Positions 4,116 to 54,763 of a DNA stretch of 64,000 nucleotides are shown here, piece after piece. Each line of letters opens with the position of its first letter. The stretch's first letter is position 1. The notes under the pieces were generated by a model. That model was given only the letters and a program-made list of their open reading frames with translations. It was not told the DNA's origin and ran no database searches. A program made the position numbers and the translations under genes. This DNA is from Sipunculus nudus (taxonomy: Eukaryota; Annelida; Sipuncula; Golfingiida; Sipunculidae). The stretch spans positions 37,650,019 through 37,714,018 of the forward strand of contig CM049306.1 in assembly GCA_026874595.1 (NCBI GenBank), in the 5' to 3' direction.

Positions 4116-4400
4116 TATCCGCCAAAACGTTGTTTTGCGGATACTATCATGTTTTTGACCGGTTTCCGCCGCCGGCGCGATCGTTTCCGGAGCACACCTC
4201 TGAGACCACTGTACCGATTTTCAAAAACTTGAAATTTTGCATATGTATACATCCTGGATATAGCTTTCTTGATTTTATGACAGGTGGCGCCACCTACATT
4301 CACGTTTATGCTAATATGCAACACATCTCGCTCTATTTCCCCCTTGCCTCTCAATTTATGCCTCATTTCACTCGTCCCACTCTGATTTCGGTGGATACAC

Positions 4401-4480
<80 letters not shown>

Positions 4481-4512
4481 ACCTATAATCGCTTGTCGAC
4501 TATCCGTATTCA
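4116..4512 (-). mobile_element. Short Helitron-like (HINE-type) element, copy A
   Basis: Read on the minus strand this matches the 42.9-44.4 kb element: left part with GAATACGG, TAGTCGACAAG and GTATCCACC, one core with the GGTGGCGCCACC palindrome (4283-4294), a GC-rich block, then a terminal hairpin with arms 4116-4128 and 4132-4143 (TATCCGCCAAAAC and its partner). A (TA)n run of ~77 bp (4402-4478) sits inside the left part. It has no coding capacity. The right end is an inverted copy of the left GTATCCGCC. Assignment to Helentron-associated interspersed elements is inference from architecture (subterminal inverted repeat, internal core, 3' hairpin). Confidence 0.65.
4402..4478. repeat. (TA)n microsatellite
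   Basis: Uninterrupted TA dinucleotides, about 38 copies. Both strands give a meaningless Ile-Tyr ORF. Confidence 0.95.
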
Positions 4513-4519
4513 AGTTTTT

Positions 4520-8668: not shown

Positions 8669-11148
8669 GTATGCGGAAATGATTTTTTTCTTCCTTTTTA
8701 TTCTCTTCAGAGAGTAACAATTGAAAGTTTTTCATTATAGTATACCCTAATGTTATGGGTCGCAAAAATCGGGCCTTATAATTTTTCCTTTGAATCAAGT
8801 TTGATGTTGTCTTATTTATTTGTTGATCTGATATTATATAAAAGTGGTATTTGTGTATTTTAGAGGATTTTTTCAGTGGCCTTTTTTGCGGTCATTAACG
8901 CAACTTAAAAACAAAAGTAATATTCTGTAATATACAGATGTATACGTTTAGAAAATAAGGGTTATATAATGAAAGGAAGTGTTGTTTGAGAGGCATTGTG
9001 GTAAGGACTTCACGGTATAAGTAATTTCTAATGATGATGATATCTGCAACATAGGCTTAAGGGTTTTAAAGATGGAAAACATACTGGATGAATCGAATCA
9101 CTCTTTCACCCCCCTTTCGCCAGAGGTCGCTTCTATTCAAAATGAACCTCTTTCAGATTGAATTTTGTGGGGATGACCGAATTGTCAAACTTCAAAATCA
9201 TTTTATTTTATTTTATTTTATTATTTTTTTTTACATTTCAAGGAAACACATACTTACATTGGTGAAAGTGAATTTTAGCGGTTTTTTTTAGATGCTTATT
9301 TTACAATCTTTAAGGCAAATTATAAACAAAAGTAATACTCTGTAATATACAAGAGATTAATTATTTAAGAAAAATCAGAGTTTTTACTTACATAATGAAG
9401 AAAGGTGGTGTTGTTTGTGAGATTTCAGGTTTAGCATTGAGTTTTCCCATTCAGGCCGTGCTGTATGCACAGTCTCTATGTCCAAATGGTATGAATGTCA
9501 TTTCTGACATCAGTTTTCCGGAAACCAAACATATTGGCATTTGGTTGAATTTTGTTTTCCTTTCTTTATCACAGACAACATGGTTTTCAGATGATTGAAG
9601 CGTTAACATCACTGTCACTTATAAAATATTACTAATTATGATCTTTTAAACATTTTATTATTTTAATTTTATTGTTTTAACTTTTGATGCTAATATATAC
9701 AAATGTACAATACATATATGGTGAAATGGCTTGCAAAAAGGAAAAACTTCAGCTATCGAGCACCTATCAATACGGAGTATGGACTACGCATATACGTACT
9801 TATGGAAAACGAACTTTGCGGATACGGACTACGCATACGGACTACGCATGCGGACTACGGATACGGACTACGTACTTATGGAAAACCACCTTTATGTGGT
9901 ACATTCAAACATGTTGGATAAGAATGGATTCAAGACAAATTACATTTGTATATCAATGAAAACCTGGGTGGTTTTATGGTAAGGATTTCACGGTATAAGT
10001 TATATTTTGTAAGCAAACACGTGAAATGTAAGGGTAATTGTGTATTTAGCGTTTTTTTGGTGATAGGCTTATTGTACCACTTTAACGCATTATTTCCAAA
10101 TTTTGTTTATTCAATTATAATAAAAATGTTTACTTATATAAGAATAGGGCTTACAGTGTTTGATAACCAGTATATTTTAGATATAATGAGCAAAAATGCT
10201 AAAAAAAAATAGCTTGTTTTCTTGGCGACGTCATCAACGTCATGCATAACATTGTGGCGGACGATGAAAATTTCAGCCAATAAATGCGTAGTGCGCAAAA
10301 AATCGCTCCCGGCAGCGTGCGGATACGGACTACGCATACGGACTATGCATACGTACTACGCATGCGGATGAATGGAAACGGCCTGGTTAAAAAGTCTACA
10401 AAGTGATTTTTTGCGGACTACGCATGCGGACTACGCATACGGACTACGGATACGGACTACGCACTTATGGAAAAGCATCTTAACCCTCTTCACTTCATTT
10501 AGGTTAACGCCGCTGGTGTATTTAAAACACGCAGTGCATTGTGGGTAAAGAATTTCTATACCTACACTCCCTAACCTCATTATAATCATGCAAAGTCTGA
10601 TCCTCAACCCGAAAGTTTGTTCTATATCCTTTTTCGGCAACTGAGAAAGAAAATCATATGGTGTGGTCTCTTGCCTCAGGCCGTTAAAATAAATTGGTCA
10701 AAACATGTGCCCATGGATTGTGAATCAGACATAGCATGATTACGCAAATGTGGAATCTTTGAATGGCATATTAGCTTGATTTTTATAGTAATATTAACAT
10801 GTAGAAACGGGAATACTTCTGCAGGTAAAATGAATGGGCAAACGTATTTGTATAAATGAATTTGCGACTGAAAATAAAAAACGGACAGAGTTATGTTGGC
10901 TTTCTCCGCTTGTGGGTTCATCGCTGCGCTGCAGTTTTGCAACACAACGGAGCGCCCCCTGGGGGTGGGTGCTAGAAGTGGGTGAACAAGTGTCCTTGTG
11001 TCTTTCGTGTATTGAGAAATTGAACGTTATTTTCACAGGATGTGGCCGTCACGTGGACAACGTGATGAAGCAGATCCCAGAGGACCAAAGATGCACGTGT
11101 GGTAAAGACGGAACCGCAAAGAAGGCGACTACATGCACGATCTTTTAG
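8620..11148 (+). CDS. Small Cys-rich (probable zinc-binding) protein, 52 aa, two exons
   Basis: Exon 1 is 8620-8668 and exon 2 is 11039-11148, joined across a 2370 bp intron. The donor is GAG/GTATGC; the acceptor is a T-rich run then TTTTCACAG. Exon 1 leaves one base and exon 2 supplies two, rebuilding a Gly codon, so the frame continues to TAG 11146-11148. The ATG has A at -3, and an in-frame TAG lies at 8563-8565. The protein starts MCYRTDCKSCGKYTW and continues GCGRHVDNV; potential metal ligands are C2, C7, C10, C18, H21, C35, C37 and C49. From memory, short uncharacterised eukaryotic proteins share the M-C-x4-C-x2-C, T-W-x-G-C-G-x-H and RC-x-C pattern; function unknown. The last four residues, CTIF, fit a CaaX box with X = Phe, but this could be chance. 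Gene existence is fairly sure; function is not known. Confidence 0.8.
9779..10475. repeat. Two clusters of a 13 bp repeat, CGGACTACGCATA
   Basis: Inside the intron of the small gene, 13 bp units of CGGACTACG plus CAT or GAT and one base are tandem at 9825-9873 and again at about 10319-10345 and 10413-10460. Both clusters are followed by the same flank, CTTATGGAAAA (9874-9885 and about 10462-10472), so one is probably a copy of the other or both are parts of one dispersed element. Confidence 0.75.
11039..11148 (+). CDS. Exon 2 of the small Cys-rich protein gene
   Basis: Codes residues 17-52 and the stop, including C18, H21, C35, C37 and C49. Four bases or so after the stop comes AGGCGCC; no obvious AATAAA is close downstream, the first being in ATAATAAATCC near 11273. 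Confidence 0.78.
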
Positions 11149-13544: not shown

Positions 13545-15371
13545 TTTTCACTTCATATATATCTTGCTCCTTGGCATTTCATTATTACATAAGTTTGGGG
13601 TGAGAATATTTGCGCCTGGTACCTCATTCCACAGGCGAATTGCTATTAGTGTAGATTTCGTAAAAATTTTGTTTTTTTTTTTTGCCAAATGACGTAGTTC
13701 AGCTTCCAGTTACTCGGGCAAAAATCACCGAATTGGAACCTGACATATACAAAAGAATTCTATCAAAAACGTTTAGAATAATAACAGATGCCTATTAAAA
13801 GCAAAAATCAGATATATTTTGTTCTTGGATTTATCTTACACTTTAGTTGGATATGGGCAACAATTATTTATGTTGCCTATACAGCTAAGCTGATATACCC
13901 ACATAGATCATATATATTATTATATTGAATCCACTAGCTTTACTTTCATTGTTAAATGTCCAATAATTCAGCAAAAAAAGTACATTTAAGTAAAACTCAA
14001 ACAAAGAATTATTTAAGAATGTTAGAGAATTTGAAACAATTTTGCAGAAGACTATTGCAGCTTTCTATGACCCTTCAAAAAATCAATTTATCGATCTTTT
14101 TTTTATACCACTGAGAGAATCCTATCCTAGGATAATTCTTGTGAAAAATTAAACCATTCTGCTTGACAGTTTGATCATGAAACATTTCTAATGTAGATAA
14201 GGAAAGGGGCTAAATTTACGACTTTTTGCCCAAGTAACAGGCCAATGTAAGTGGCTCCACAAATACCCCAATTTCACATGCGAGTCATGTGACCAAAATT
14301 TGCTTAAACATTGGTGACGCTAGCTCCTGTCATTTCTGAGACTGTTAAGTAGTTAGTATGCTTACTTGGCCAATTGACCAAGTTCAAATTCCTGTAACTC
14401 GGCAAAATTACATAGACCCCAGACCGTTTGAATGAGCTTGAGCGGCCTCATCTCTGGGATCATGAAATAATGACAAATTTGACTGAATGATTTCTGAGAA
14501 GATTTTCAAAGTTTTCAAGCTTTTCCCCACGTTAACGTAAGTTGATGCAGGTGGCGCTACTAAAACCTTAATCCCAGAACATTTGATATTCGACTGATAT
14601 CAGCATGAAATTATGCACGTGTATACATCTTCGATAGCTTCGTCATATACAAGACGGGTAGCACCACCTGCAATACTTTATGCACAGTGTATGCTCCTGT
14701 TTATTTCTCAGGAGTTATTTATACAATATTCAGGCTGATATGTCAAATAAGCATGAAAGCATTATACCGAAAAAAAGTTCAATACAACATTGAACATGGG
14801 ACTGATCTTTTGCATAAAATTTGGGGATGCTAGCTCCTCCTGTTCCTGAGAAATTAGGAGTAAATGTACCGATGACCCCCAATGGAGCCACCAATACCTC
14901 AGTTTTAAATAAGACTCATGTGAGCAACATTTGCATAAAATTTAGAGATGATAGCTCGAGCCGTTCATGTGATTAAATTTTAAGTATTCTTTTTTGGCCA
15001 GTTGACGGAGTTCAGTATTCAATAACTCCGCCAAAAAATCACCGAACTGGAACCATTCGAACAAACTTCAGAGAGATTGTTCTTGGGATAATTTCTGTGA
15101 AATATTGAACAATTTGGCTGGACGGTTTCGTCGAAGATTTTAACGGTTTTTAATTAGCTTTATCCTTATAAAATCTGAAGTCAATGCAGCTAGCAAAAAA
15201 AAAATAAAATAAAATAAGTTCTATCTTATCTATATAAAGTTTCACGTGACTGATCCTCCCATAACATTTGGTGCTGGGAGCTCCAACCATTTTTGAGATA
15301 GCAACTAATGTACGACAGCGGACAGACGCCGCTGCATCGTCGTATAAGCTCACAGGTTCGCTAAAAAAATG
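13545..15371 (+). mobile_element. Repeat element of the AAGCTCACAGGTTCGCTAAAA family, copy 1
   Basis: Contains three eroded cores around 13690, 14370 and 15000, each with a GTTCAGCTTCC-like start, CTCGGCAAAAATCACC and GGAACCATTCGAAC, and one AGGTGGCGC motif (14549-14557). It ends at an ACAGCGGACAGACGCCG tail plus ATAAGCTCACAGGTTCGC and TAAAA. The same cores and tail recur at 41.3-42.8 kb and in part at 44.8-45.2 kb. The short ORFs across it are not genes. Confidence 0.65.
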
Positions 15372-20629: not shown

Positions 20630-23600
20630 TCAGAACAAATTTTTCCTCACTGGACACTGAGAGTTCAACCATTGCCGCCAGGTCCTTGGATGACAATGGG
20701 CCATGTGCTTCTGGGCAGAAATTCTTTGGTACGAGTAACTTTTACATAACTGGCAGAACCAATGGCCCATTATTTTATCATATTTCAAATAGCAACACTC
20801 TGAGAGAACCAAATGTGAGAACCTTCTCTTTCCCAGAATATCAAGTTGTCTACTGCATCTGTTTTTTCGAGGGCTTCGTCGTAGTCTCATCTCACTCTGA
20901 GATTTCTGCTTCATTATGCTGATTTTCTGCAGATCATGGTCATTTTTTTCAACAGAAGAGGTTGGAATTGCTGGTATGGACTTCTTCAAACCAGACAACT
21001 GTCTTATGTAGTCTACAGTGTCCTCATCTAAAAGTAGACAAAATTGTATGTCCATGTCTATCTGAAGTCTGCATTTCAAAATCTTCCTTTCTCGGCATGG
21101 TGGTGAGTCTGATTCAGTTGTACCATCAAAAAAGTACAAATCAACTATCTTTGCAAATTCTTCCTGACTCTTGGTCTGGATGAGGCTACCATTCCATATA
21201 TTAACATCTTCCAACATGGCTGTTTCCTGAGCATCTTGATCACGACAAGAGACATCACTGGAGACCGTTTTCATCCCTGGTATATAATTGTCAGGTCCTG
21301 AAACAGCGATCCCCACAAAATCATCTCCACTTGCCTCCCGGCTGTCCAAACTATGGGAAACTTCAATCTCTCTACCACAAAGTAGTGCATCTGAAAACTC
21401 GCATTCCTTATTTGTTGAAAGGATACTGGCATCTATCATCTCAGCAGAGACAGAATCTTTTACTGGATTTTCTTGTTTTTCAGAATCCCTCTTAGCTGTT
21501 TGGTTGTTAGTTTGTTCTTGTTCTTCACTCTGGGTCAGGTTCTTCAGAATTTGACCAGTCGTTCTGGTAAAATCATCTGCTTCTGACCCTGTATCAATGT
21601 CAGAACAGCAGTATCTGTGCAACAGAAAAATATTATCATCAACGCTTTCAAATTCAAGATATGAAGGACTATCAACATCAGGGTTTGAATAGTCGACAAG
21701 GTCCACTGAAGCTGGTGGTATATTAGTATTCTTTACAAAAACATCTGCATACATCGACTGCACATCTATGATACACTCTGGGTCAGTCAGCAGCTCACCT
21801 GGCAAGTACATTTCATCCAAGTTAGGGACATCCTCCCCGTTTTTGTCCATTTTTAATTCAAAACAATCACTGGTGAAAACCTCACTTGTTACAGTATCTG
21901 TTGGTGAACTGGACCTTAGACTGTTACCACTGGTTGTCTCATGTTCTTTCTTAACATTATCAGTTGGCACATTATGACCATGACTCCTTTCACAAACCAA
22001 CTTCTCTTCAGGTAAACATACTTGTGGTTCCATCATTCCTGATATACTACTTTGTGTATCAAAGGCTCTCCTTTGCCCATCATGACATAATTCACTAACA
22101 TTTTGTTTGTTCATGTTCTGATTTGAGATTCTTTCAACTGGACAGCTCGTGTAATTTATCCTTCCCTCTAAAAATTCATCCATGCACCTTGGGTTACTGT
22201 TTTGACATCTGTACTGCTCACTATTACTGGCTCCAAAACCAGTTTCATCAAGATGTCTGTTCACCAGTGTGTGGAACATTTTGTTATCAACAACACTAGA
22301 CCTGTCAATATTTTGTTCTGTGCAATAAAGCATTAGATTTCCGCTGATGTCCTGTGAATATTGTTGCTGCAGAAATCCTTCTTTAATTGCCAATGCACTT
22401 ACTTTCTGTTCATGATTAAGATCACCAAAGCACCAAGGTATGTCAGGTAATGAATTGGTGACCAAACAAAAACTGCCTCCAGAACTGTGGCTGACTTCAG
22501 TATACAAATCAGATCTCTGCATATCTGGGTCTCTGTATCCATATGGGACTGTGCCATCAGTACCTGAAGATTCAAGCATCACTACTTCCTCTGACGCTTC
22601 GGCACTGTAACCATACAAACAAGACTTGTCAGCTGCACCTGTGACCACACACTTATTTTCAACATCCAAACCTGAGGGCTTACAAAGGTCTGCAACTTCA
22701 CCACTGGTACTTGGCAATGGTTTTGCCATCTCCAATGTATCAAGAATATCTAATCGAAAGCTTTTATCATCTTTGATGTGGATCTTTTCATCAGGAATCA
22801 TTCCTCCATCCTCTTTTTTCTGAACACATGGATAGCTTGGATCTACCAGGTGGTATCCTCTGCTGGTTCCATTTGCGGACTCAATGCACTTTTTATAATC
22901 AACTGCACTTGAGGTACTTGCATTCTCAAAGCCATCTAATTCTGTAAGCCAGAGACCAGAATGAGGAATATTATATTTTCTCTCTGATGACTTTTTCAGA
23001 TCCAGGAGAAAATCAAACACACTTCTCTGTACTGCTGATGCAGGCTGTGAATCATCAGATTCATCCACACTCTTGACTTCACTGAAGTTACTGTAGTCAT
23101 CACTGTCTTCCTCAGTTTCCAAAAGGTTTATGCAGTCTTGCACTGAAATGGTTGTAGTTCTATGTGCATTATCAAAGCACTGGGCCCTGGAATGTTCTTC
23201 TGGATACGAATGTGATACAGATTTTGGTTTTCTGTGTTCTACCTGAACCGGCTCAATATAAGTGTGATCAAACAGAGGGCCATTATCTGGTAAAGATAAA
23301 TCTGGCAGGTCAAATGGATCTAAATCATCACTGAAGAGAGAACCTTCCTCCATGTCACTCAGTTCTGTATCAGCATCTTGAGATTCAGAATTTGTCGTGG
23401 AAAGATATAAATGAAGTTTATCTTCCTCTAAACCAAACTGGGTTGTTGTAATAGGCTCTTCATCTAATAACACCACAGAATCTGAAGATAAATCGTCATC
23501 AGAACTTATGCTTTCACCTTGGGAACTTTCTGTGAGCAGGATGACCTCTTCAGAAGATTCACTAATGTGCTCCCAATCTGCACAGGCCAGATCATCCACA

Positions 23601-25069: not shown

Positions 25070-28000
25070 CTGAAATCAGAAGTAATACAGCTGCATAAGC
25101 AATGTTTTATCAAAACATGCAATATCTATTAAATGGATAAAACTATACATAACTAAATTTGAGGAATAATAGATATATATTAAAGCCAACAACTGTAACA
25201 CTCTTAATTTGACATTACTGTCCAAGTTTTATGGGATCTAAAACTAAGTGAATCATAATAACAACATTTCTACATGTAAAGGCAGAAAAAGGATCTACAG
25301 ACAACAGTATAAAATATGCTGCACTTGGGTTTCATATTGTATCCTCTCCCCATTATTACTGTACCAAAGACTTCAACATCTGAGATACGATGAAATTAAT
25401 ATTATTTTATAGGAATTAAATGATATATGGTTCTTCAGATACTTTTTATCAGATCATTTGTAACATGTTACTAAGCCAACAATTTTCTAAAACTAAAAAA
25501 TGATAAGCAGTATTCAAGAATAATTTCGAATTGAAAAGGATATAGATCTTAAAAGTGCTCCACTGCAGAATCCTCATCTCCAGAAAAATGTTAAGTTGTA
25601 CAGCTAAAACTGTTACATGACTGATCCTAGCAAGTTTTTACTTAACTTGTTAACAACACACACAAACAAGGGCCTAGAGGCACAAATAGTCCCCCGCCAA
25701 ATGTCTGACTATGAAAATGTAGCATCAGCCTACTAATATTCCCAAACCCTCACAAGAAACTATTTTAAATTCAAAATACATGCAATTTAATTAAAATGGG
25801 ATTTAAAAATGAGGTTTCATGATTAGCTGTTTAAGTATCTACATTACCTGGTTTTTAACTGGGAAGAAGAGGTGGATGCAATTCCTAAACTACACAGACC
25901 TTAATAAGAAACATAACGGTCAAGTCTTACATTCACTCAAATACTGTGCATGATACAAAACAAACAGTGCACTTGAAAATACCACTGCAGTTATTATCCA
26001 AAATAAGTGGCTGTCATGGTTGTGGCCAAGGAATATGTCTGTAACATTTTATGCAAACAGTTCCTGCTGTTGCAGGGAAATTTGGTGCTAGATTTCACAT
26101 GAAATAGGTTAACACCTGAAATTGTAAAATTTTGTGTTTGGTAACATTTGTATTTGCATGAAGAAGCCTTTATAAAGAAAAAAACATTCAAGTCAACCAC
26201 ACTTCATTTTGACCATAATATGCATTTTGAATATTTCCCAACTAATTCAGGAATTCACAGAAAATACCATTGCATCTTGATCAAACAGATCGGAAGCCAC
26301 CACCAGTGGTGCCAACTGCAAGAGAATCACATAGCAGTCACATGATCAAACATGTCTGCCAATTTGGAATGTTTGGTGCAGTGGAGCCTGAGATAAAAGC
26401 TAACAGATTTTGCACCATATATGCAAAGACAAAATTACAAAATTTTGCAATCAGTAAAATTCAAATTCCTGTGCAAAGATAATTTTGAAAATAATTACAT
26501 TCAATTTTTAGTGTTCATTCATTCTCCTTGCTCCAATGAATGTCAGTCAACTGATCAATACGTCTGGAAAATCTGGTAATGACTTGTGCAGTGGTTCAAG
26601 AGATGAAAGGTGAAAGATTTTCCACCATATATGCAAACCTCTGAAATCAGAAATTTTTGCGATCAGTCCCTTGGAAGTTTGAAACAGCATTTTAAAAATA
26701 ATTCTATTCAATATAGTATTCATTTAATTCATATTAGAAGGAATCTGTGTATAGGTTTTTGAAGGCTAAAGTATTCTAGTTTACGGACTTATCTGAAGGA
26801 AGGTGGAACAAATTATTTTAGATCACAAAAAGTAGTTCAATAGGTGTGGCACCACCTGCAGGTTAAAATCACATGAAAGTCATGTGATGAGAATGTCTGT
26901 AAAATCTGGTGAGGTAGCAGGGTTTTCATAAATATTTGGTGAAAGAAGGGAGAGGGTGAACAAACAGACCAACTGATGGTCGGCCTGACCCTGACCATTT
27001 CAGAAGTCCTCCTTCCTGTGTTGGGGGACTACACAGTACAAGTAAAGGTGGTGCCACTACTCTCATAAAACTGATACATATAACTATCCATGTTTAATAT
27101 TCAATCCTAACTGCAGTTCAAGCATTACTTTCTGACATCATGAAATTTTGTACTATTTTTTACTTTAAATTAATACTTGGAATTTCTCAACTGAAATTTA
27201 CATTTTTTAGGAACTCCTTTGGCAAATTTGGTATGTACCTTGAATGAAGACAGGGTCAGATATGTCAATGAGGAATATTTATTTTGATTTTATTATCTAA
27301 TGTAAGATATTTGTTCAATGACACTGAACACAAAGAATCAAATTTCTGTTTTCAAATTCCTTGCCTTGCAGAAACAGGTCAAGGTTACATAATTTCTGGT
27401 TTCAAAGATCTGATGACGAACTATATGAATGTACAGTTAGAAATGGCATATCTTGCTGCCAAATTTGAAGCTTTGTTCTCAGCATGATCGCCAAACTATC
27501 GCCAATATAACTTCAAACTGTTAGCCGAGCTTAACATTTAAGCATAATCTTGAATGGTAAATCTTAATCTGTGCAATATCTAAAATAAATTTATAAGCCT
27601 GGCTTAACTTAGCAATCAGCAGGGTTGATGGAAATCTGACATATAAAGTAAGTATATCAAAAGGCCTAATTTGGGGTCACATATTCCCTGCTCTGTATTC
27701 ACAGATTGGTAAACCTAAATGGAAATATCACAGCTGAGGAGATCAGGGGTATTAAGGCATGGAATGAACTGCGAATATGTGATACCATACAAAAAGGGAG
27801 CTAGATAAGTTACTACCAAGTTTAACCATCTAGAAATCTAAATTAAAGTGAAGAAATACAAAGAGACTGACATGGAAAATGAAACTGACTGAAATAACTC
27901 AGAACTACAAGCTGTCAAAGCATAATGTACCAAAACAGCAGAACAAATGTGAAACGTTGAGCATCACACAGCTAAAATAGGTTCATGCCTCAAAAGGTAA

Positions 28001-31000
28001 TAAACTGTAACACCAAAAATATATTACAAATGAACCACTGGAAGGTAAACAAAGAAAGGCAGTGGCTGGGTTTATTGATTTATTTGGAGGTTTTAATGGC
28101 TCCAGAGGTAAAGGGAGTTAGTTATCTGACACTGATCAAAATACAGCACAAGAACACGTCATCACAAGGCAGAATACCTAGAAGGTATCACAGAGCAAGG
28201 TACAAGGAGGTGAAACAGTAAGGCACCAGAGTAAGGCACCAGAATATATGACTGAATAAGACAGGTATCACACTGATAAGCCAGGCATTATTTATGGATC
28301 AAGGCAGGAGGTAAAGCAGTCAGGCCCAATAAAACACGGCACAGCAAGAGAGGGAAGCAACAGTAAGGAATCCTTGGACATTACAAGTACTAAACTAGAA
28401 TATCAGCAGAAGCTGACAAAAGCCCTCAGCCAAAACAACATGCAGTGTTTAGAGGTGGTAACAGTAACAAGTACTAAATATCTGTTCTCACATGGATGTA
28501 TATCTGTACATGTCTCAGTTATAAATTTAAAATGGAGAGGTATGTACCATGATTCATAACAATCCACCAAATGCTTCTTGAAAAATAAGCTTCTAAGTTT
28601 TATTCTATTATAGGTCAAGGTCACCCATCTTCGAACTTGACCGAGATTTTGTAGATATACGTCTTCACCAAAGAAATAAAAGTCCTCTTGTGAATCCTTT
28701 TAGAGATATCCCCCTCACAAAGCCAAAGTTGAAAAATCCAAGAAAAATTCATTAAAAATCAGAAATTGCAGGCGGCGCCCCAAAACTTGTGCAGCAGTTA
28801 CAGACCATCAGTCCCTATGATCATAGTAAGAATTGTGAAAATCCACCCAATGGTTTCTGAGAAATAAGCTTCTAAATGTTTTTTCTATAATCTGCTCTAA
28901 AACGTAGAAAAATAGGTCAAGGTCACCCATCTTCGAACTTGACCAAGATTTTGTCAATATACATCTTCACCAAAAAAATAAAATTCCTATGGTGAATCCT
29001 TTTAGAGATATCCCGCTCACAAGCCCAAAGTTGAAAAATCCGATAAAAATTCATTAAAAATCAGATATTGTAGGTGGCGCCACCAAACTTGTGAAGCACG
29101 TACAGACTATCAGTCCCAATAATCATAGTAAGTTTTGTGAAAATCCACCAAATGGTTACTGAGTAATAAGCATCTAAGTGTTTTTCTATAATCAGCTCTA
29201 AAATGTAGAAAAATAGGTCAAGGTCACCCATCTTCGAACTTGACCGAGATTTTGTTGATATACATCTTTACAGAGTGAATAAAATTCTGACGGTGAATCC
29301 TTTTCATGATATCCCGCTCACAAGGTAAAAGTTAACGGACGCCGGACGTACGGACAGCTTAGGTGACGACAATAGCCCATCAGCCTATGGGCTGAGGGCT
29401 AAAAACAGACAAAGGAAAGTGCAAGCAAAAGGATATGACAGAGCAAGACAAGGGAGGTAAAAGATGAGGCACTGGAATATATGACAGAGCAGAACAAGAG
29501 AGGTAAAGGATGAGGCACCAGAATATAAGACAGAGCAAGTCAGGGGAGGTAAAGGATGAGGCACCAGAATGTATGACAGAGCAAGTCAGGGTGGTAAAGG
29601 ATGAGGCACCAGAATATATGACAGAGCAAGTCAGGGGAAGTAAGGAATAAGGCACCAGAATATATGACAGAGCAAGTCAGGGGATGTAAAGGATGAGGCA
29701 CCAGAATATATCATTAAATGGCAGGGCAAGTCAGGGGAGGTAAAGGATGAGGCACCAGAATATATGACAGGGTAAGTCAGAGGAGGTAAAGGATGAGGCA
29801 CCAGAATATATGACAGAGCAGGTCAGGGGAGGTAAAGAATGAGGCACCAGAATGTATGACAGAGCAAGTCAGGGGAGGTAAAGAATGTGGCAACAGAATA
29901 TATGACAGAGCAAGTCAGGGGAGGTAAAGAATGAGGCACCAGAATGTATGACAGAGCAAGTCAGGGGAGGTAAAGAATGTGGCAACAGAATATATCATTA
30001 AATGACAGGGCAAGTCAGGGGAGGTAAAGGATGAGGCACCAGAATATATGACAGGGCAAGTCAGAGGAGGTGAAGGATAAGGCACCAGAATATATCATTA
30101 AATGACAGAGCAAGTCAGGGGAGGTAAAGGATGTGGCAACAGAATATATCATTAAATGACAAAGCAAGTCAGGGGAGGTAAAGGATGAGGCACCAGAATA
30201 TATGGCAGGGCAAGTCAGGGGAGGTAAAGGATAATGCAACAGAAAATATCATTAAATGGCAGAGCAAGTCCGGGCAGGTAAAGGACGAGGCACTGGAATA
30301 TATGACAGAGCAAGTCAGGGTGTTAAAGGATGAGGCACCAGAATATATGACAGAGCAAGTGAGGGAAGGTAAAAGATTAGGCACCAGAATATATCATTAA
30401 ATGACAGAGCAAGTCAGGGGAAGTAAAGGATGAGGCACCAGAATATATGACAGGGCAAGTCAGGGGAGGTAAATGAGGCACCAGAATATATCATTAAATG
30501 ACAGAGCAAGTCAAGGGAGGTAAAGGATGAGGCACCAGAATATATGACAGAGCAAGTCAGGGGAGGTAAAGAATGAGGCACCAGAATATATGACAGGGCA
30601 AGTCAGGGGAGGTAAAGGATGAGGCACCAGAATATATCATTAAATGACAGAGCAAGTCAGGATGGTGAAGGATGAGGCACCAGAATATATGACACAGCAA
30701 GTCAGGGGAGGTAAAGGATGAGGCACCAGAATATATGACACAGCAAGTCAGGGGAGGTAAAGGATGAGGCACCAAAATGTATGACAGAGCAAGTCAGGGG
30801 AGGTAAAGAATGAGGCACCAGAATATATGACAGAACAAAACAGGGGAGGTAAAGGATGAGGCACCAGAATATATGACAGCAGGTCAGGATGGTGAAGGAT
30901 GAGGCACCAAATATATGACACAGCAAGTTAGGGGAGGTTAAGGATGAGGCACCAGAATATATGACACAGCAAGTCAGGGGAGGTAAAGGATGAGGCACCA

Positions 31001-38879: not shown

Positions 38880-41800
38880 CTCGCTACGGGATATTTAAAA
38901 GGTAAACTTTTATTTTTTATAGACGTGATTTGTGATATTTCAGCTGCATGAATAAATCATTAGTAATACTAAAATGTATTATTAATTCCCAATATGCCGA
39001 CAGCAATGCCGCCACAAAGAGCAAATCTGATTGTAAAACACCGTGGTGAACTCATCTGTCAGTTCAGATTCTGTCAGTCAGGATTTGTTGATGATTGCTT
39101 CCATATAATATGGGTATTAGAAAGGACCGTATCCAGGTTTCGCGCTTAAAACCTGAAACCAAACATCACATTCAACTTTTCTACAGCAGTTTGGCCTCAT
39201 TAAGAACTGTGACCATTCAAATATATTCGAATATTTACGTCGATTATCAATTATAGTCAATCAAACAACGTTTGGCGCGTCATGTGATTTCATGGAAGGT
39301 GAAATCAGCATTAGTCTTTTATACAGATACAAGGTGGCGCTACCATAGCAGCTATGTTCACTTCTTTTGTACCAAATTTTATTCATCAACATTCACTAAA
39401 TACGGGTCATTGTGAAAGAGTACCTTCTATTAAATATTCATTTTGGGCGCCACTGGATGTCTGGCAGACATGCACTTAGATATATACGACAGGGGTCACT
39501 AATTGTAATACCAGTTAAACACCACCAGATAAGCTTACACACGTGTACTTTTGTTCATGGCTTAAACAATTTAAAAAATATCACTGCCGGGCTGGTATTG
39601 ACACTTTCCAGTCAAGTGCTGGGCGGCAGGTAAGACTGCCGGGCGCACCCACCTGGCACCACCCGGCGTGGGCACATCCCTGGGTTTATGAGCTGTTGAC
39701 AAAAATGGGTCCTGTGATCAGTTGAAAGCCCACCTGTCTCCTCAACCTGGAGTAATCATCCATAATATAATTTGTGAATGGATGGGCTCTGTGACCTTGA
39801 CCTTTGACTGAATGACCCCCAAAATCAAAAGAAACCTTCCCCTATTGGCAGGTGCACCAAGTTGAAGACAGAAGGTTTGGGATGAAAATTGGCTTAAAAT
39901 GCATACACAATCTTATTAAAGAATAGGTCCAGTGACCTTTATCTTTGACATCATGACCCCAAAATCAAAAGGGTTCTTACATTAACATTATTGGTGGGTC
40001 ATATATATCAGTAAAGTCTGAAACCAATATGTCAATCCAAACTTGAATTATCATCTGGAAACAAATACGCAGACAGATGGCCTCTGTGACTTTGACCCCA
40101 AAATCAATCTTGATTTCCCTATTCTTCCCCTATTGGCAGGTCATTAATGCGTGTAAGATGGAAGGTTAGGGATGAAAAGTTAGGCTGAAAATGCATTTAC
40201 AAACTTTCTAAATATGTTGGTCCTATGACCTTGACCTATGACCTCATAACCCAAAAATTGATAGTTCTTGTGATAGAGATTGATCATATATAAGTCAAGA
40301 TTAAATCAATATGTCAAACCAAACTGGAGTTATCATTAGGAAAATATTGCATGAAAAAATAGAAGAAAATAAAGGTGGCAACACCAGTCTCCAGGAACTA
40401 AAGAAACCATTCATAATCAATAAACACCGGGTTTCAGGGCACTGGATGAAACCACAGCCAAGAAGCTGACATAATTGCTGTCATTTGATGGTCTAAATAA
40501 AACAGAAAAAAAAAATTGTTAAAATTAGAACAAGGCCTACAGGCCTAATGTGAACCTGTGCAGTGGTTTATACAACAGGTATAATGCTTCGATGCTGGGC
40601 CATTACTTTTCAAGTAGGCCTTCATATCTTGTATACGACTAAGGTATCAGAGATGTATACATATGCCCAATTTCAAGCTGATTTCCCCTCATGAGAAATA
40701 AGCAGAGACAAAAACTGTGCAAAAATTATTGTACATAGGTAGCCTCAAAAGTCTTGTATACAACAAAGTTTTACAATATATATTAATATGCCCAATTTCA
40801 GGCTGATATATCAGATTCCTTTGGAGAAACAAGCAGGCATACACACTGTGCAAAAGTCATTGTAGGTGGCGACACATGTCTTGTGAACAAGAAAGCCATC
40901 AAAGACGCATAGGTCAAAATATCAGGCCAATACATCAAACCTCTCTTATGTTTGTTACACTGGGCTGACCAGGCTTTGGTTAGAAAGGCAGTTGCCCCGA
41001 GTGAACTGTGACAAATTGTTGGCTCAAGATCAAGACTGACCTTTGGTCCCAAATCTGATACAGTGGGCAGTCTGTCAAAGCTGTAAACAGAATGCAGCTA
41101 CTGCCCTGAGTGAACTCTTGACCCATACCTGGCTACACTAAGTAAACTCTTGACCTGTTGCCTAATCTGATACAGTTGCCAGTCTGCCAAAGCTATAAAT
41201 AGATCCCGGCTGACCTTTAGCCTGTTGCCAAATCTGAAATAGTAGGCAGTCTGCCAAGCTATTTAACCGGAAATCTAAATGTCTAGTGGCATGATGTAAT
41301 AAATTCTGATAAACTGGAGCCAGGCTAGCTGTAACTGCTTCACACAGCTAACATATACCGTAAAATGACTCAATTCAATCTCCATAATTCAGCCAAAATC
41401 ATTCATGTGGAACCATTAAAGACAATTATTATAAGAATTATTGAAGGGATTATTCTTGTAAAATATTTAACAAACTGGCTTCAGTGGCATCAGAAGATGT
41501 TTTGCAGGTTCATATAGGAAGATACAGCAAACTGGCTAAGTTCAGCTTACCGTAACTCAGCCAAAAACACTGAACCAAAACCATTTGAACAAACTTGAAT
41601 CAATATCATCTGAGGATCATTAATGTGTGAGATTTTAGCATTTGGCCCAGTGTTTTTTGAGAAAATCTTTGTAGCCACTGCGCAAAATAGGGTTGTTATG
41701 GCATATGACTAAATTCAGCTTCCTATAACTTAGCCAATGTCACTAAACAGAGACCATTTGAACAAATTTAAGAAAGCACTACCCTAGGATCATTTCTGTG

Positions 41801-44800
41801 CTATATTAAACATTTAGGCCATATGGTTTCAGAGAAGAAGTTTTTTGTAGCCCTCAGTGTGATACAGGCACTGATGACCCCGTACAAAAAAGGCCAATGC
41901 AGGTGGCGCCACCAATACCTCAATTTCAGATATGACCTATGTGACCAACATTGGCATAAAATTTGGTGATGATAGCTTCAGCTGTTTCAAAGAATTAAAT
42001 TTTAATATGCTTTTTTGCACAATTAACAAGTTCAACCTCCTGTAACTTGGCCAAAAATATCCAAACTGGAACCATTCGAACAAACTTCAGAAAGATTGTT
42101 CCAGGGATCATTTCTATGAAATATTGGACAATTTGGCTGGACAGTTTCAGAAAAGAAGATTTTTAAAACATTTTTTAGCTTTTTCCCTATAAAATCTAAC
42201 AAAATGCAGTTAGAAAAAAATAAACAAAATCCAATATAGTTTTTTGGATGACTGATTATTTGCAAAAAATTTGGTCATGCTAGCTCCTGCCGTTTTTGAG
42301 ATAGCTATGGTTAATGTACAGACGACGCATGACGCACGACTGATGACGCCGCACCATCGCATAAGCTCACAGGTTCGCTAAAAATTGATGATGATAGCTC
42401 TAGTTATTTCTGAGGTTGTATTTTAGCATGTAATTGACTAAGTTCAACTTCCTGTAACTCAGTCAAAAATCACCCAACTGGAACCATTCGAACAGACTTG
42501 AGAGAGATTGTCCCATGGAACATTTCTGTGAAATATTGGACAATTTGGCTGGACAGTCTCAGAAAAGAAGATTTTTAAAGTTTTAAAGCTTTTTCTCTAT
42601 AAAATCTAAATTAATGCAGAACCTCTATAATAAGCTCTAGGGCACCAAGTTTCACATGTGACTAATTTCTACATGTAATTTGGAGCTGCTAGCTCTGAAG
42701 GTTTCTGACTTACAGCCATGGATGGCGGACAGCGAGCCTTGGACGGCAGATGGCGGATGGACGACGCCGCGCCATTGCATAAGCTCACAGGTTTGCTAAT
42801 AAAATGGGAGGTAAAATCAGTTTTCAAAACTCAATGGTAATTTCAAAATTAATAATTTAATTTTTACTTGAATAACAAATGACAAAATCATGGCAATATA
42901 TCAATGAACTAGAATACGGGTAGTCGACAAGGGACTACGTGTATCCGCCTAAATCAGAATGGAACGGGTGAAGTGAGGCATGGATTGAGTGGTAAGGGGA
43001 AATAGAGTGTTGCATATTAGTATGATAAAGAGCTATGTGAGAACTATACACATGCAAAACTTTGGCCCAATCGGTCAAACGGTTCCCAAGATATGAGCTT
43101 GGATGTCTGCTGCATAAACTAGAATGCAGGTGGCACCACCTGTCATAAAATCAAGAGAGCTGTCAGGGATGTATAAACCTGCAAAATTTTAGGCAGATAT
43201 GTCAAACCACTGCCGAGATATGAGTGATTTTATCCCATGGCAGACAAACAGACAGGAGCTGTGCAAAAATGGCTGCAGGTGGCGCCACCAGTTTTGCGTA
43301 TGATAAAGAGCTATGTGAGATCTATACACATGCAAAATTTTGCCCAATCGGTCAAACGGTTCCTGAGATATGAGCTTGGATGTCTGCAGCGTAAACGTGA
43401 ACGTAGGTGGCGCCACCTGTCATAAAATCAGAAAAGCTATCCAGGATGTATACGCATGCCGAATTTCAGGTGAATTAGTCAAGTCACTGCAGAGATATGA
43501 GTGATTTTAACCCAAGGCAGACGAACAGATGGACACTGTGCAAACATGGTTGCAGGTGGCGCCACCATTTTTTGTGTATGTTATAAAGCTTTCCAAGGGT
43601 TACATTTGTGCAAAAAAAATTTTCCTGATCGGTCAAATGGTTCCCGAGATATGAGCTTGGATTTCTGCAGCGTAAATGTGAATGTAGGTGGCGCCACCTT
43701 CATAAAATCAGAAAAGCTATCCAGGATGTATACGCATGCTGAATTTCAGGTGAATTAGTCAAGTCACTGCAGAGATATGAGTGATTTTAACCCAAGGCAG
43801 ACGAACAGATGGACACTGTGCAAACATGGTTGCAGGTGGCGCCACCATTTTTTGTGTATGTTATAAAGCTCTCCAAGGGCTACATTTGTGCAAAAAATTT
43901 TCCTGATAGGTCAAATGGTTCCCGAGATATGAGCTTGGATTTCTGCAGCGTAAATGTGAATGTAGGTGGCACCATCTGTCATGAAATCAGAAATGCTATC
44001 CAGGATGTTTACGCATGCTGAATTTCAGATGAATTAGTCAAGTCACTGCAGAGATATGAGTGATTTTAACCCAAGGCAGACGAACAGATGGACACTGTGC
44101 AAACATGGTTGCAGGTGGCGCCACCATTTTTTGTGTATGTTATAAAGCTCTCCAAGGGCTACATTTGTGCAAAAAAAATTTTCCTGATCGGTCAAACGGT
44201 TCCCGAGATATGTGAGTTTATGTGTGGAAACAGACGCACAAACGGACGCAGAGCGCAGAGGAAAGGTCAGAGGTCAAAACAAAATTGGGGCGCAGCAGTT
44301 CACATGTGACCCGAACATAATCCCGGGTTTCGTAAAATTCCGCCCAGCGGTTACGGAGGAGTTCTCCAAACACCTACGCCGCAGCGGCGGCATGCAGCTG
44401 AAAAGATAGTATCCGCAAAACTCTGTTTTGGCGGATACAATTTAAGTACACAAATTTATTTAAACCAAATGTCCAAAAACTATATCTGCAGAGTATTGTA
44501 TATGATAAGAAAAAACTGTGACTGTAGTATGAAAAGATGGACTGTCCATACAGGAAAATAATTAATTTTTATAAGCAGATCAACTGACAACAGAAGAGGA
44601 AGAGACCAGTGCAAAAAGATACTGTTGCAGATTATCAGACTTCGTCAACTTAGCTGAATAAAACAGCTACAGCTTGAGTAAAACAACCTCAACTCCTGCA
44701 TGGGAGTCCATTACCAGACAGTGGAAGAATGGTGAGTTTTAGTCCTACAAAGGTTATTAACCTAATTAGCTTCATTCTACTTATTTCTGTTTGATATTAA

Positions 44801-47800
44801 AATTAAACAATTTGGCCATATGGTTTTAGAGAAGAAGTTTTTCATAGCCCTCAGTATGATACGGGCACTATTAACCTCTGTACAAAACAGGCTGATGCAG
44901 GTGGCGCCACCAATACCTCAATTTCAGATATGACTCATGAGACCAACACTTGCATGGTTTGCATGGCAAATTTGGTTATGATAGCTCCAGCCATTTCTGA
45001 GACTGTAATTTTTAAATTTTTAATTATTCTGGGAGGTACTTGCAAGCACCATAGCTCTGAGGATACAGGTCGCACTGACCTAATTTCAGATTTCCAAGGA
45101 GAATTTTTATTGACCTACCTGAATGTACATTAAGAAGTTTCTAGGTTCAGCAGTTATGATTTTTTCCTTGCTAACTGACGGCCGAACAGATGAGGAATAA
45201 AGCACCATACTTAAACCTCAGCTTACCTTCAATCAGCTGATTAAAAATAGATATGAAAATGCCGATCCCACCGAAGAAAACGCACATAGGCCAATTGGTT
45301 TGTTCATTTCCATGTGTTATTAATGTGGATTTAATGCTAAAATAATCATAACACATTCAAAAACTACATCTGATGGCAAGTCAGACAAACCAGTTTTGAA
45401 AAGGCATTTTGCAACTAGTGACCTTTCAACTTCAGCACACATGCAACCAACCCCCTTCAGTTACATTTTTTGCTCGTAAACAAGCACCATGTAAACTCAC
45501 AACTTATAACTAACTCATAAATCTGCCACAAATGTATAACAAGAAATTTTTTTACCTGGAATTACCTACAGCTGTGATATGTACACAGAGCAGGTAAGGA
45601 ATAATTCTAAGGAAAATGTAGGTGAATCTTTTGCTTTAAAATTCTGCTTCAAGATGTTCAGCCTGGAGCACTATGAGTAAATATTCTATAATTTATTCCA
45701 GGGCAAAGCATCAGGTCAGGGCAGAAGAATTATAAAATTTAAGTTTACAAATATGCACAGGGGTTCTGCCAGAAGGTACCGATGACTGTCTCTTTCATGT
45801 TTGTTTGTTTTTTTCTAAGAGCTCATGACCCTTTTCTAATTTGGGTGTAGGAGTGAGAGATCTTGGCTGCAATTGCTGCCTTTCTACTTGAGAGAAGTCA
45901 ATAAAATGGCCTGAACTATGGTGAATTTTCCGAAAGTCAATACTGTTAACTAGCTGCCATACTGAAAGTATTGATGAGAACACCTAAGAATTCCCTGAAA
46001 TTACAGTACTGAACTTTTAGACATATTAAGAAGAGAAAGCAAAGGTGTCAGTACTTTCAGATTTAGGGTACCATTCTATCACACAAGGTACATTCCTGGA
46101 GTAAAATATATGACCACTTTCATTTTAGGTGCCACTCTGAGAGGAAATGTCTGTTTACCAGCCAATAAATACATAAAAACCCTTGTATATGCAAAAAAAG
46201 GGAGTGCATGTATGTACACAGAGAAAAAAATAATTAGTCTGTGCAGACATAGAAAGAGATCAGGACTGAATGTATGTGCTTCTCCACTTGCCCAAGGCAA
46301 GAAGTCACCTCTTATGTGTTCACAAGAATCAGCAAGTGGATTCAATATAAGCCTGTACTTAATAATCTTCAGTCTGCCAATTCCTTTCTTTGTAAAATGA
46401 AGTATTGATAAAAACATTTATCTCAATATACCAGTATATTGCACATTAAATACCATCCAAGCAATTGAAGGGCCTAGATTCCAATATTTGATGTCTATTC
46501 ACTAAAGATGATCCTTACAGTTTGTATATAAAAGGTTAGAAAATGCCAATCCCACCTCACAAAGTTCTTTTTGTTTGATGTGTTTACAAACAGCTCCCAG
46601 ATAAACAAGCTTGTCCATCTAACACAGAGGCATTTTAAGAACTTTCCTCAGCAAGAATTACCCTCAGTTTATTAATACATACACAGAGTGAACCAGAAAT
46701 CACAAATTCTACTGGATGTAAAGGTGAAAAGCTGGCTTAAAAAAAAGAGCAAATATTAACATGTTAACTGTCTCATGTGCCATAAAACATGCAAACACTC
46801 ATGTGAATCTACAACATACTCTCTGTTTGCCGCTCAAGCTATTGATCTTGTAAAGCAAGTATTTTTAAACAGCTTTTAATTTGAGTCCTACTGCCCTAGA
46901 TATGTTGAAATGTGTGTATATACCTGTACAGATACAGGGATATCTCATTATCCAGCTTTCCTTGAGCATGGAATATGTTGAATCTGATAACCTTAAAGCA
47001 CTTTAAAGCCGGAAGTGATATTTTCAGGTCACAGCGAATTTAACTGGACTGTGACAACACAAGCCCATGATGAACATCACGTGCTGTACTTGATATGGAG
47101 ATAACTATCAGTTAGAACTAAGGTGTACATGATGGCATCCACACCTTGCAGCTAGGGATTTAATGGCTTTCTTAGAGCACATAACACAGGCACATATACT
47201 GGTCACATTTTTATTCCTCTAAAATTCTAACCCTGCAGAAAGTGATGGTTTCAGTTCACTGTGTATATCTGTAAGATCTGAAGAATTAATTTATGGATTT
47301 TATTGAAATTAGACAACTTGATCAATATTGTGAAATATGAGATATCGCTAATACCTATACCTGTGTGTGAAGACAGTAAATGACTGCCTTCTTGAAAAAC
47401 TGCAAGCAAACAACTAGTGCCTCCTAGCACCCAGCCTGACCAGCCCATTGGCACTGTGATGGCACTGGACATAGCAATTTTAATTGCGTATCATCCTGAT
47501 ACTTGATATTTATCATATTTATTATGCTGTGTTAAAACATATTACAGAAGCATATAAAGACATCAGAAGTTGCAGCATTCTGCATGTTTTGCATTAGAAT
47601 TTGATCTTGTAGGATGACATAAGGGGAACATACACAGGGCCTTTCAGTCATTGATAAATGTCAAATTTTGCAAGTTTCCTTGATTTTGTCTTATATTCTG
47701 GTACCAAATAATTGTATTCTCGTACTTATTAAATGATCATATTAATTAATCAGTCCTTAGAGTATACAAGCTTACAAAGTTGAATGGCCAGTTTCATCCG

Positions 47801-50986: not shown

Positions 50987-51039
50987 GTTTTGGTGGCTGG
51001 GATTTCCCGCTCCGGTTCGTGACCTTCAAGGGCCAAACA

Positions 51040-51160: not shown

Positions 51161-51179
51161 TTTGGTTTAAAGTCTTAGG

Positions 51180-51482: not shown

Positions 51483-51559
<77 letters not shown>

Positions 51560-52010
51560 TGGTAGAAATTGGGTTTAAAATTATAATCGATGACTGAAAA
51601 ATAAAAACGACTGATCATCGATTTTTAAATAATGACCACGTACCCCCCCCCCCCCCCCCGTAAAGAGTGTGACGTGTACATTAATATAATCAATAAATTG
51701 GCATATCACTATATATATACATTGTGTGTGTGTGGATATACATACTACCAGAATATCATATTAATATATAGGCCTACTGATGTTATGTGTATTTTTAAAT
51801 TTTGATATTTGCTGAAGTCAAAGTAAAATCAATTTTTCTAGCGATCGGTGAATTTTCGTTACTATGCAGTCCCGATATGAAAAATTAAAAATCAAATTAC
51901 AATTTAACCCAGTGGCGTCAATTTATCTTCCAGGGTCGGGGGGGGATGACTTTGTATATATATATATATATATATATATACCATTTTCAGCGTCTCTGAG
52001 TGACATAATA

Positions 52011-52079
<69 letters not shown>

Positions 52080-54110
52080 GATATATATACTTAATCATAT
52101 TTCAAATAATTATAATGTTTTAGATAATAAGTTATTTTGTGGATTCTTAGTTATATAACATAAGTTATAAGTTATATAACATATAGATATAACGTTTTTT
52201 CGTAAACTGATCCAAAGCGTTTAATTCTAATTTTTTTATATTTCATTTGCAAAATTATAATATTATTATCTGAAAAGTGGGGGGATGATTACATTGACCA
52301 TCCCCCCCTTGCCAAAAAGTGGGGGGTATATAAAAACCCCCCTCCCCCATCCCCCCCCCCCACCCCCAATATTGACGCCCCTGAATTAACAAAAAAATTT
52401 CTGGCCTTGTTTGCAAATGAAATATGAGGGATATTCCATAGCAGGACGGGCAGGTCCCCCCCCCCCCCCCATAACAAGAAACGAGTTCCGCGCAAAGTCT
52501 CGAATAGGCACCCTATCTGCTTTATGACAATTAAAAAGGATAAACGCCCGAGGTCACTTCAAGTATATCATAGTTTTATTCACTACCGCCACATTGCACC
52601 ATATTATAAGGGGTGAATATGTTTTGGTTTTACGTAAAAAGTTTGCTCAAGTTTCAACACTTAATTTTTTATTTTGTTTTAACTCTACCCAATGTGCAAA
52701 TATGACGGAATGTCGCCCTGTTTAAAATCAAAGGGACGTAGCCAGGATTGAGGGAAGGGAGGGGGCCGAAATATTTGGCAACCAGAGTGGCCCATCCCGC
52801 ATTTTCTGAGAAAATGAATTAGAGGTTCTATATTAGGTTAGTTCACCTGCGGCCCACCCAAACCCTTTGGCTACACGCCCCTGAATCATACGTTAGATAC
52901 ACTGAGCAGTGGAATGGACTTAAAGCTCTTCCCCCCCCCCCCCCCCGTCCTAAAAAAATGCAAGGAGATCATATCCCCTGTACCCTTGCAAAAACGGTAA
53001 TAATCATATTGAAACTATGAATCCACCTGCATCCAAGGTCGACTTGCCGTCGTCGGACGATTGTACGCAGGCAAGAATCCGTTTTGCTGTTCGTTACTTT
53101 TTGTTCGTACATCTCTGACAGGATAAGATTCTTTGCTTGTGCGTACGTAATCGTTTTTAATCCATTATGTAAAAAATGCAACCAATTTTATTGATTTTGA
53201 AAGAACATGACCAATCATCTATTTAATTGATTAATCGACACACCACTAATATAACTATATAACTATATATATATATATAGTGGCGAAAACCCGATAAAAC
53301 GCAGGATAAATCCATGCTTGAAAGACTGTAATCATATACGTGACGATTTGGATCCCTTTTGAGACGCCCTTTCTCGTGGTGGATAATGGATCTTAAAAAA
53401 AGGGGGGGGGGGGTCACTTCTCTTGCACTGGTAAATGTACCGAGAGTGTTAGCAAATGTTATACAAAACGCTCACACGCAGATGTATCGGGAAGAGAAAA
53501 ATGATCTGTTTCTCAATATTTGTCGTTTATTATTCTATTTTTCATATTTTTATATAAGTCGAAAAATTAAGAAGGCACCCGCGCCCCCTTAAATTTATAC
53601 GCCCTGCGTCTCCGTACCAAGTAAGCGTTGCTGTATACTCCTCTACTGTCCATTTCTGGTTTTATATGATTTCTCATGCTTAAGTTCACTTTTTAATGAG
53701 AAACTATATTTGATATATTTGTGTATGTTGAACATAGAATTCCATAGATGTGTACTTTTCACACGTTATCACGGTTCACACTAATTTACGATCAGCCTCA
53801 AAACGTTGCTCCGGCTTCTATACTTGGAAGATACAGAACTATAATGGCCACCTGGACCCTGCATGCAGTGTCACCGAGATACACAACATCACAGAGGCAC
53901 TACAGGTTCTAATGCCCACCAAACAATCTCCCCAGAGTATTGTCCTCAAAGTACTTGTCGTTTTTTCGTATCCTATTGAAATCCTGACCTTGCATCCTCG
54001 CAAATATTTTCAAAACGCTCATAGGAGCCCCCATTTTGCGTATACCGGCTAAAACGTCGAAAGTCGCATACCTGCATTAAGGTTATACACTTAGATATTA
54101 CTAGAATATG
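51180..54110. repeat. Simple-sequence region between genes
   Basis: (TA)n at 51486-51556, 51956-51980 and 52015-52071; poly-C at 51643-51659, 52351-52361, 52456-52470 and 52931-52946; poly-G at 53402-53413. ORFs are Ile-Tyr or Gly/Pro shadows of these. No gene seen. Confidence 0.85.
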
Positions 54111-54129
54111 GGCATGCAGTCGAATGCAG

Positions 54130-54763
54130 GTATCCGAAAAACAGACATATATATAGATGGATGCCAGATGAAATTGATTACAGATGGCGCTACCAATTTG
54201 TACACAAGATAAATAATTCCAAAATCTATGGACATGCAAATTTTCAGGCGGATTCATCAAACCATTCCTGGGAAAAGGGTATCAACGTATTCTACGAAAA
54301 CGGAACGGATGGTGGCGCCACCTGTATGGTCTACAACAAAGCTACCCAAGGCGGATAAACATGTAAAATTTTAGGTTGATATACATCCATCCTCTCCAGT
54401 CCTGAGATATGCGTAGTTTCACGCACGGATGGACGCCATCGGTCTTGATTCCAGTCGATTGCAGATGGCGCCACCAGTCTTGAATACGAGATGGAGGTAT
54501 CCAAGTTCCATGCATGGACATTTTTCAGCCCAATACATTGAACTGCTCCTGAGATGTGGGCTTTTATCACTAAAAAAGACATACAGATGGACACTGCGCG
54601 AAAAGGATTGCATGTGGCACCAGTTCAAATGTGAACCGATAATTATGCCAAGTTTCAGAAAGATTAGTCCAGGGGTCAGAGAATTTCTCCGGACACGAAC
54701 GAGGCGGCAGAGGAACTCGGCTGAAAGTGAAGTATATTCGCAAAACTCTGTATTGTTGGATAC
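54130..54763 (+). mobile_element. Helitron-like element, copy C (degraded)
   Basis: Starts GTATCCGAAAA, has cores with AGATGGCGC (54182-54190), GGTGGCGCCACC (54311-54322) and GATGGCGCCACC (about 54465), then an ACACGAACGAGGCGGCAGAG block and a decayed terminal hairpin at 54732-54763 (GTATATTCGCAAAAC with ...GTTGGATAC). Same architecture as copies A and B. Confidence 0.6.

Follow-up and report, generated by a model that had tools for sequence, protein, structure and literature searches.

As far as the portions of the literature drawn on here go, HINEs carry subterminal inverted repeats (subTIRs) and a 3' palindrome and often contain satellite-like arrays (PMC4067079, PMC7492417), and a preference for TT as the target has been noted for the DINE-1/HINE group (PMC4067079). 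Oyster Helitron/Helentron elements contain such arrays according to the available parts of PMC11136912 and PMC8268682, and in Crassostrea gigas otherwise dissimilar monomer clusters are described in part of PMC7492417 as having two conserved segments in common. Excerpts of two other reports place a CTCF-like motif at the boundaries of squid TADs (PMC9023564, PMC10658181). Here we describe a 12-base palindrome, GGTGGCGCCACC, in repeat families that resemble, by analogy of their parts, non-autonomous Helentron-type (HINE/pearl) elements. All palindrome counts and family searches were confined to one 64-kb stretch of DNA (the window), which has a G+C content of ∼37%, contains long A/T and C runs and includes an ORF with a PDZ domain at 59822 (Pfam). 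These features give the impression of an animal genome, perhaps molluscan or otherwise lophotrochozoan.

Recurrence of the palindrome

The window holds 11 perfect copies of GGTGGCGCCACC, at 4283, 29073, 41902, 43278, 43406, 43555, 43687, 43835, 44114, 44900 and 54311, and base composition predicts 3.2e-4. The first-pass annotation had listed exactly these coordinates and had stated that such a 12-mer would not be expected even once by chance, and both points were borne out. It had also named four near copies. These exist, with their positions off by one base: the true starts are 14550, 39333, 54183 and 54464. Other near copies were absent from its list, among them 43129, 43965 and 51051. Sites with at most two mismatches to GGTGGCGCCACC number 25, compared to 0.49 in shuffles and, two phases of (TA)n aside, no other palindromic 12-mer is present at least twice in the window. 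Six of the 11 perfect copies lie within one homogenised tandem array (43278-44125), so the independent loci number about six: 4283, 29073, 41902, the 43-kb array, 44900 and 54311. In the open-access texts searched, the 12-mer turned up only in a single unrelated paper on chitinase and six variants of it not at all.

Elements carrying the palindrome

The sites are repeat-borne, as had been claimed, and lie within apparent mobile elements, which we refer to as families F1 to F4:

42915..44440, plus strand, element F1A, outer limits set by eye
43129..44125, plus strand, box array of F1A with 8 palindrome boxes, 6 of them perfect
43129, 43278, 43406, 43555, 43687, 43835, 43965, 44114, plus strand, boxes of F1A, spacing alternating between ∼130 and 149 bp
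4118..4510, minus strand, element F1B, one monomer with the perfect palindrome 4283, outer limits by eye
54094..54765, plus strand, element F1C, three monomers with boxes at 54183, 54311 and 54464, outer limits by eye
40612..40945, plus strand, decayed F1-like monomers, three units
14590..14687, minus strand, F1-like monomer inside an F2 region, box 14657, E 6.5e-7
14230..15364, plus strand, F2 element with decayed boxes at 14250, 14550 and 14881, right end ATAAGCTCACAGGTTCGCTAA
41710..42799, plus strand, F2 element with the perfect box 41902
44760..45185, plus strand, F2 fragment with the perfect box 44900, limits by eye
28421..29401, plus strand, F3 element with a 302-bp tandem unit
26305..26930, plus strand, degenerate F4 copies (starts 26305 and 26845), decayed palindrome, TGCA on the right

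F1A consists of a left end with TGTATCCGCC, a central satellite-like tandem array of 277-280-bp dimers (43020-44212) and a right module with a 3' hairpin. The hairpin (44409-44438; -11 kcal/mol, z -6.65) holds the inverted copy GGCGGATACA, and the two ends show a subterminal inverted match of 10 bp, a length reached by 0 of 300 shuffles. F1B was found by the palindrome-masked F1 profile at E 4.3e-7 and has ends as in F1A, a (TA)n interruption and a 3' stem-loop (z -3.9). F1C has a fourth, decayed monomer near 54613; its ends are decayed too and the stem-loop at its right end is no longer present (z -0.6). The left end GAATACGGRTAGTCGACAAG..TGTATCCRCC is common to F1A and F1B, and the right module of F1A, F1B and F1C ends in ATCCGCAAAAC-n3-GTTTTGGCGGAT or a decayed version of it. 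Among the decayed monomers at 40612..40945 the box at 40865 is retained (2 mismatches) and the remaining two boxes are mostly gone.

For the F2 elements at 14230..15364 and 41710..42799 the left coordinates are provisional. The F2 terminus ATAAGCTCACAGGTTYGCTAA occurs at three places, on a single strand only. Within the window the F2 right end has no inverted partner even when 3 mismatches are allowed, and its fold is no more stable than those of shuffled sequences (z +2.0). Over 76 nt the two perfect F2 copies agree at 89%, as close paralogues. In the element at 41710..42799 the right end appears twice in succession (42362-42381 and 42780-42799), as though there were two 3' ends.

F3 has a perfect box at 29073 and another with 3 mismatches at 28771. 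Its subTIR AGCCCTCAGCC at 28421-28431 recurs in inverse orientation at 29390-29400 as a perfect match of 11 bp, which none of 300 shuffles reached, and its 3' hairpin at 29373-29401 folds at -12.4 kcal/mol (z -5.48). Shortly after F3 a purine-rich unit of 46 bp is repeated ∼38 times in an array (29433-31249). Other arrays in the window are built of a 61-bp unit (∼15 copies, 2455-3376) and of the 13-bp unit CGGACTACGCATA (three short arrays, 9822-10463).

Compared with the features of HINEs, which include subTIRs of ∼11-15 bp, the inverted matches of F3 and F1A come to 11 and 10 bp, and the longest in F1B and F1C to 6 bp, which is chance level. A 3' stem-loop was found in F1 (F1A, F1B) and F3 only and not in F1C or F2, and a central tandem array in F1A and F3. 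HINE-like ends are present in two copies. No Rep, helicase or endonuclease domain was detected by Pfam in the 4 of 13 window ORFs that were scanned. One long open frame, 20630-25075 on the minus strand (1481 aa), has no Pfam match at E 0.001; on visual inspection its end resembles a C2H2 zinc finger.

A monomer plan common to the families

The units of the different families follow a common plan: the palindrome, ∼40 nt and then a second box (box B), in units of ∼130-150 bp. We built the box B profile from eight array units, in which box B starts 37-43 nt past the palindrome; its best match beyond the array is at 54234. Within an interval of 35-46 nt, and with two orientations tested, 11 of the 28 sites outside the array have a box B at p<0.01, compared to ∼0.6 expected. 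Six of these sites are F1-like or belong to no family (4283, 40374, 40865, 54183, 54311 and 54464) and five belong to F2, F3 or F4 (14881, 41902, 28771, 29073 and 26305). The test fails at 26845 and at the perfect F2 site 44900, in the latter case because of an 11-nt insertion. In F3 box B follows 40 nt past the palindrome with scores of 11.9 and 11.3, which are not significant alone (simulation maxima, n=20: mean 8.6, up to 16.8). Box B also recurs in F2 without the palindrome.

With the palindromes masked, the F1 profile still recognised F1-like units, with E values between 2.4e-9 and 0.005. Its matches to F3 had E 7-10, and those to F2 had E 1.6 or worse and did not fall in register (at 44900 the offset was 11 bases); the masked F2 profile matched F4 in register at E 0.23 and 1.5. 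A hit was counted as in register if it fell within 3 bases of a palindrome-like site, with hits up to E 20 considered and training copies excluded. For the masked F1 profile 8 of 29 hits were in register, which 0 of 2000 shifted controls equalled: six F1-like units, which are clear relatives, and both F3 units at offset 0. The masked F2 profile had 4 of 25 hits in register, of which F4 contributed two and F1 and F3 one each (controls 0/2000). As most of the eight in-register F1 hits are plain relatives, we added a control restricted to weak hits (E above 0.01). Two of 21 weak F1 hits were in register, both of them F3 at offset 0 (7 of 5000 controls reached two), and so were 4 of 20 weak F2 hits, with the same split among F4, F1 and F3 (controls 0/5000). 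The link between the families rests on this register; the similarity of single cross-family matches is weak. The earlier view that the families otherwise differ is partly wrong, as the second box recurs in them at a fixed distance from the palindrome.

Scanning the window for tRNA genes and against Rfam (gathering threshold) returned no match. A strict two-box pattern found 0 loci in viral contigs and one locus in prokaryote contigs (L001, on a Saccharibacteria contig), though the pattern matches the window itself only once, i.e. it is too strict. Four longer patterns found 0 loci in viral contigs and TGYAGGTGGCGCCACC alone found 34 viral loci. The palindrome-free F1 profile had no match at E 1 or better at any of 35 viral/prokaryote loci and we thus took these loci as chance.

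Form and conservation of the box

To describe the form of the box we used 17 sites with at most 3 mismatches, which were family members chosen and oriented by hand. The choice used the 12-mer as criterion and did not use the flank; two of the eight array copies represent the array and non-family sites were left out. The consensus of the box is ANTGYAGGTGGCGCCACC with GGTGGCGCCACC at its centre. To its left stands A(14)N T(13)G(13)Y(15)A(13), with the number of sites out of 17 in brackets, and the right flank is looser. The box is asymmetric: at the perfect sites TGYA stands on the left in 8 of 11, on the other side in one more and never on both sides. Of all 36 sites with at most 3 mismatches, 19 have it on a single side and none has it on both, at a background of 0.0129 per position. 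Both F4 copies carry TGCA on the box B side, opposite to the remaining families. Among the 17 sites we counted 21 changed palindrome pairs, and complementarity was restored in 0 of them. Folded as single strands, three examples of the box gave -2.3 to -3.1 kcal/mol (z -0.3 to -1.5). Judged by its letters, the asymmetric flank together with the lack of restored pairs points to an asymmetric protein footprint, i.e. to a box that is read as double-stranded DNA by a protein, and disfavours a hairpin.

The first-pass annotation had asked whether the palindrome is better kept than its surroundings. In the sample available in this one window, eight units outside the array picked from palindrome-masked hits, this is somewhat the case, by a modest margin: 76 of 96 palindrome bases were kept (gaps counted as misses), compared to 566 of 831 in the other columns (gaps left out). 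By column means the palindrome ranks 2nd of 111 windows, and the 1st is the same window shifted by one base. Conservation of the palindrome is hence above average, with two of the eight units (40628 and 40752) mostly without it.

Comparison with the CTCF motif

The boxes had originally been proposed as CTCF sites with AGGTGGCGC on both strands. We scanned them with an approximate version of JASPAR MA0139.1, a vertebrate matrix that may not be the host's; all bit scores given here refer to it. With a uniform background the better strand of 10 of the 11 perfect sites reaches 3.0-6.8 of 26.1 bits, and 43278, at 12.8 bits, is the only one that reaches at least 10 of 26. When the background follows the window composition, two of the 11 reach 10 of 31.3 bits: 43278 (16.4) and 54311 (10.1). 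The proposal is therefore unsupported for most copies. AGGTGGCGC is present on the plus strand in 10 of the 11 perfect copies and on both strands in only three (4283, 43406 and 43687).

By chance (simulated, uniform) we would expect ∼14 positions with at least 6 bits per 64 kb and 0.4 with at least 12; the window has 27 and 6. Two of these six are palindromic, 43278 and the F4 site 26847 (16.1 bits). Among sites outside the palindromes, 57595-57613 (20.5 bits) and 57915-57933 (16.8 bits) lie on the minus strand in the same orientation, 320 bp apart, and further CTCF-like sites were found at 10950-10968 (minus strand, 16.3 bits) and 22851 (12.1 bits). Since non-palindrome sites score up to 20.5 bits, the matrix is usable in the window.

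Set beside the vertebrate site, the box is alike in the 3' half YAGRKGGCRSYA, to which the match is limited, and differs in that the upstream CC is absent and an A is conserved at the first C position. The CTCF 3' core YAGRKGGCRS is matched, with YA on the left at 10 of the 11 perfect sites, and YAGRTGGCGCYA agrees with the 3' part of the consensus. Of the 17 sites, none has C at the first of the two upstream positions, where 14 have A, and 3 have C at the second. As the C pair is missing across families, we regard this as a property of the box and not as decay of single copies. Among the open-access papers listed on CTCF in connection with molluscs, Helitrons and satellites or invertebrate transposons, no title or abstract opening dealt with repeat-borne CTCF sites, and none of those listed for CTCF together with AGGTGGCGC had a title on repeats.

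Interpretation of the box

Our preferred reading, to which we assign a probability of about 0.58, is that the palindrome marks a conserved box, probably bound by a protein, in the satellite monomers of HINE-like elements, and that this box spread with the elements. GGTGGCGCCACC would be the centre of the asymmetric box ANTGYAGGTGGCGCCACC in a satellite-like monomer of ∼130-150 bp, and this monomer may be an old building block common to several non-autonomous HINE/Helentron-like families of the pearl/CvA/Cg_HINE type described in molluscs. Such elements would be mobilised in trans by a rolling-circle Rep/helicase. The box would act as double-stranded DNA, as a putative site for a DNA-binding protein that either belongs to the machinery of the element or is supplied by the host and exploited by the element. 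Repetition in arrays would multiply the putative site, and transposition of the elements would have spread it.

The palindrome could instead be structural, forming a hairpin or cruciform that takes part in rolling-circle transposition or in the expansion and breakage of arrays. We consider this rather unlikely. It would suit a perfect palindrome in tandem units, and two of the three F1 right modules start, by eye, just past a palindrome remnant; in the available parts of PMC5139131, 13 of 16 array junctions of the clam satellite phBglII400 lie at a 12-bp palindrome, and a palindrome close to the repeat junction of DTC84 is conserved. A hairpin has against it the unrestored pairs, TGYA never being on both flanks and folding energies far from those of the end hairpins of F1A and F3. 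Neither the folding of the boxes nor the changes in their pairs supports a functional hairpin. It is improbable, too, that the box has no present function and is shared through one recent source or homogenisation by gene conversion. The concentration of six perfect copies in a single homogenised array and the close paralogy of the perfect F2 copies would fit, but the palindrome persists in most units while the rest of the monomer has drifted to about 68%, and it spans families whose masked matches are near noise.

We regard CTCF as an unlikely reader of the box, and the wider proposal that CTCF binds the AGGTGGCGC core and that the elements scatter insulators as very improbable. In its favour are the fit of YAGRTGGCGCYA, the variants G2>A and C9>T, which remain within the CTCF consensus, and the two palindromic sites among the six strongest in the window. 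The enrichment of a CTCF-like motif at squid TAD boundaries, as given in part of PMC9023564, also agrees with it. The scarcity of C at the upstream anchors and the low scores of 10 of the 11 perfect sites speak against it. A related and equally doubtful idea is that ANTGYAGRTGGCGCYACC is read by an architectural zinc-finger protein peculiar to the lineage, or by a paralogue of CTCF whose upstream fingers have changed, and that HINE-like elements have scattered clusters of such sites genome-wide. If true, it would be a counterpart of the case proposed for placozoans, in which Mutator ends would have been domesticated at loop anchors.

On the protein-site reading that we prefer, an asymmetric box of 16-18 bp that is kept across families would offer a bait for its reader, whether element machinery or a host chromatin factor. 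Conserved segments have already been noted in the monomers of mollusc rolling-circle elements, with no role assigned to them in those parts of the literature considered here.

Comparison with known systems

The following comparisons refer to the portions of the cited papers that were available. The loop-anchor motif carried by placozoan Mutator elements (PMC12221973) is alike in being a transposon-borne motif that potentially serves an architectural protein; enrichment at loop anchors was measured there, and here the motif is known from sequence alone. In DINE-1/HINE elements of Drosophila and mites (PMC4067079) the subTIRs measure 12-15 bp and are identical over at least 11 bp among members of a family. 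They share with our elements the 3' stem-loop, optional tandem repeats and no coding capacity and differ in the layout of subTIR and hairpin. The satellites BIV160 and Cg170 have two conserved motifs in common (PMC5139131), which can be likened, by description, to the palindrome and box B. Also likened by description are the pearl-family elements CvA and DTC84 (PMC5139131), which are modular with central repeats; the conserved junction palindrome of DTC84 may be compared with the one found here. For Cg_HINE of Crassostrea gigas (PMC7492417) the likeness, which takes in the two conserved segments common to its dissimilar monomer clusters, is again one of description and not of monomer sequence. 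Its right subTIR precedes the hairpin, whereas here the right subTIR forms one arm of the hairpin. Cg_HINE and the elements described here are alike in their short monomer arrays between left and right modules and, as far as F3 and F1A go, in their subterminal inverted repeats and 3' palindrome.
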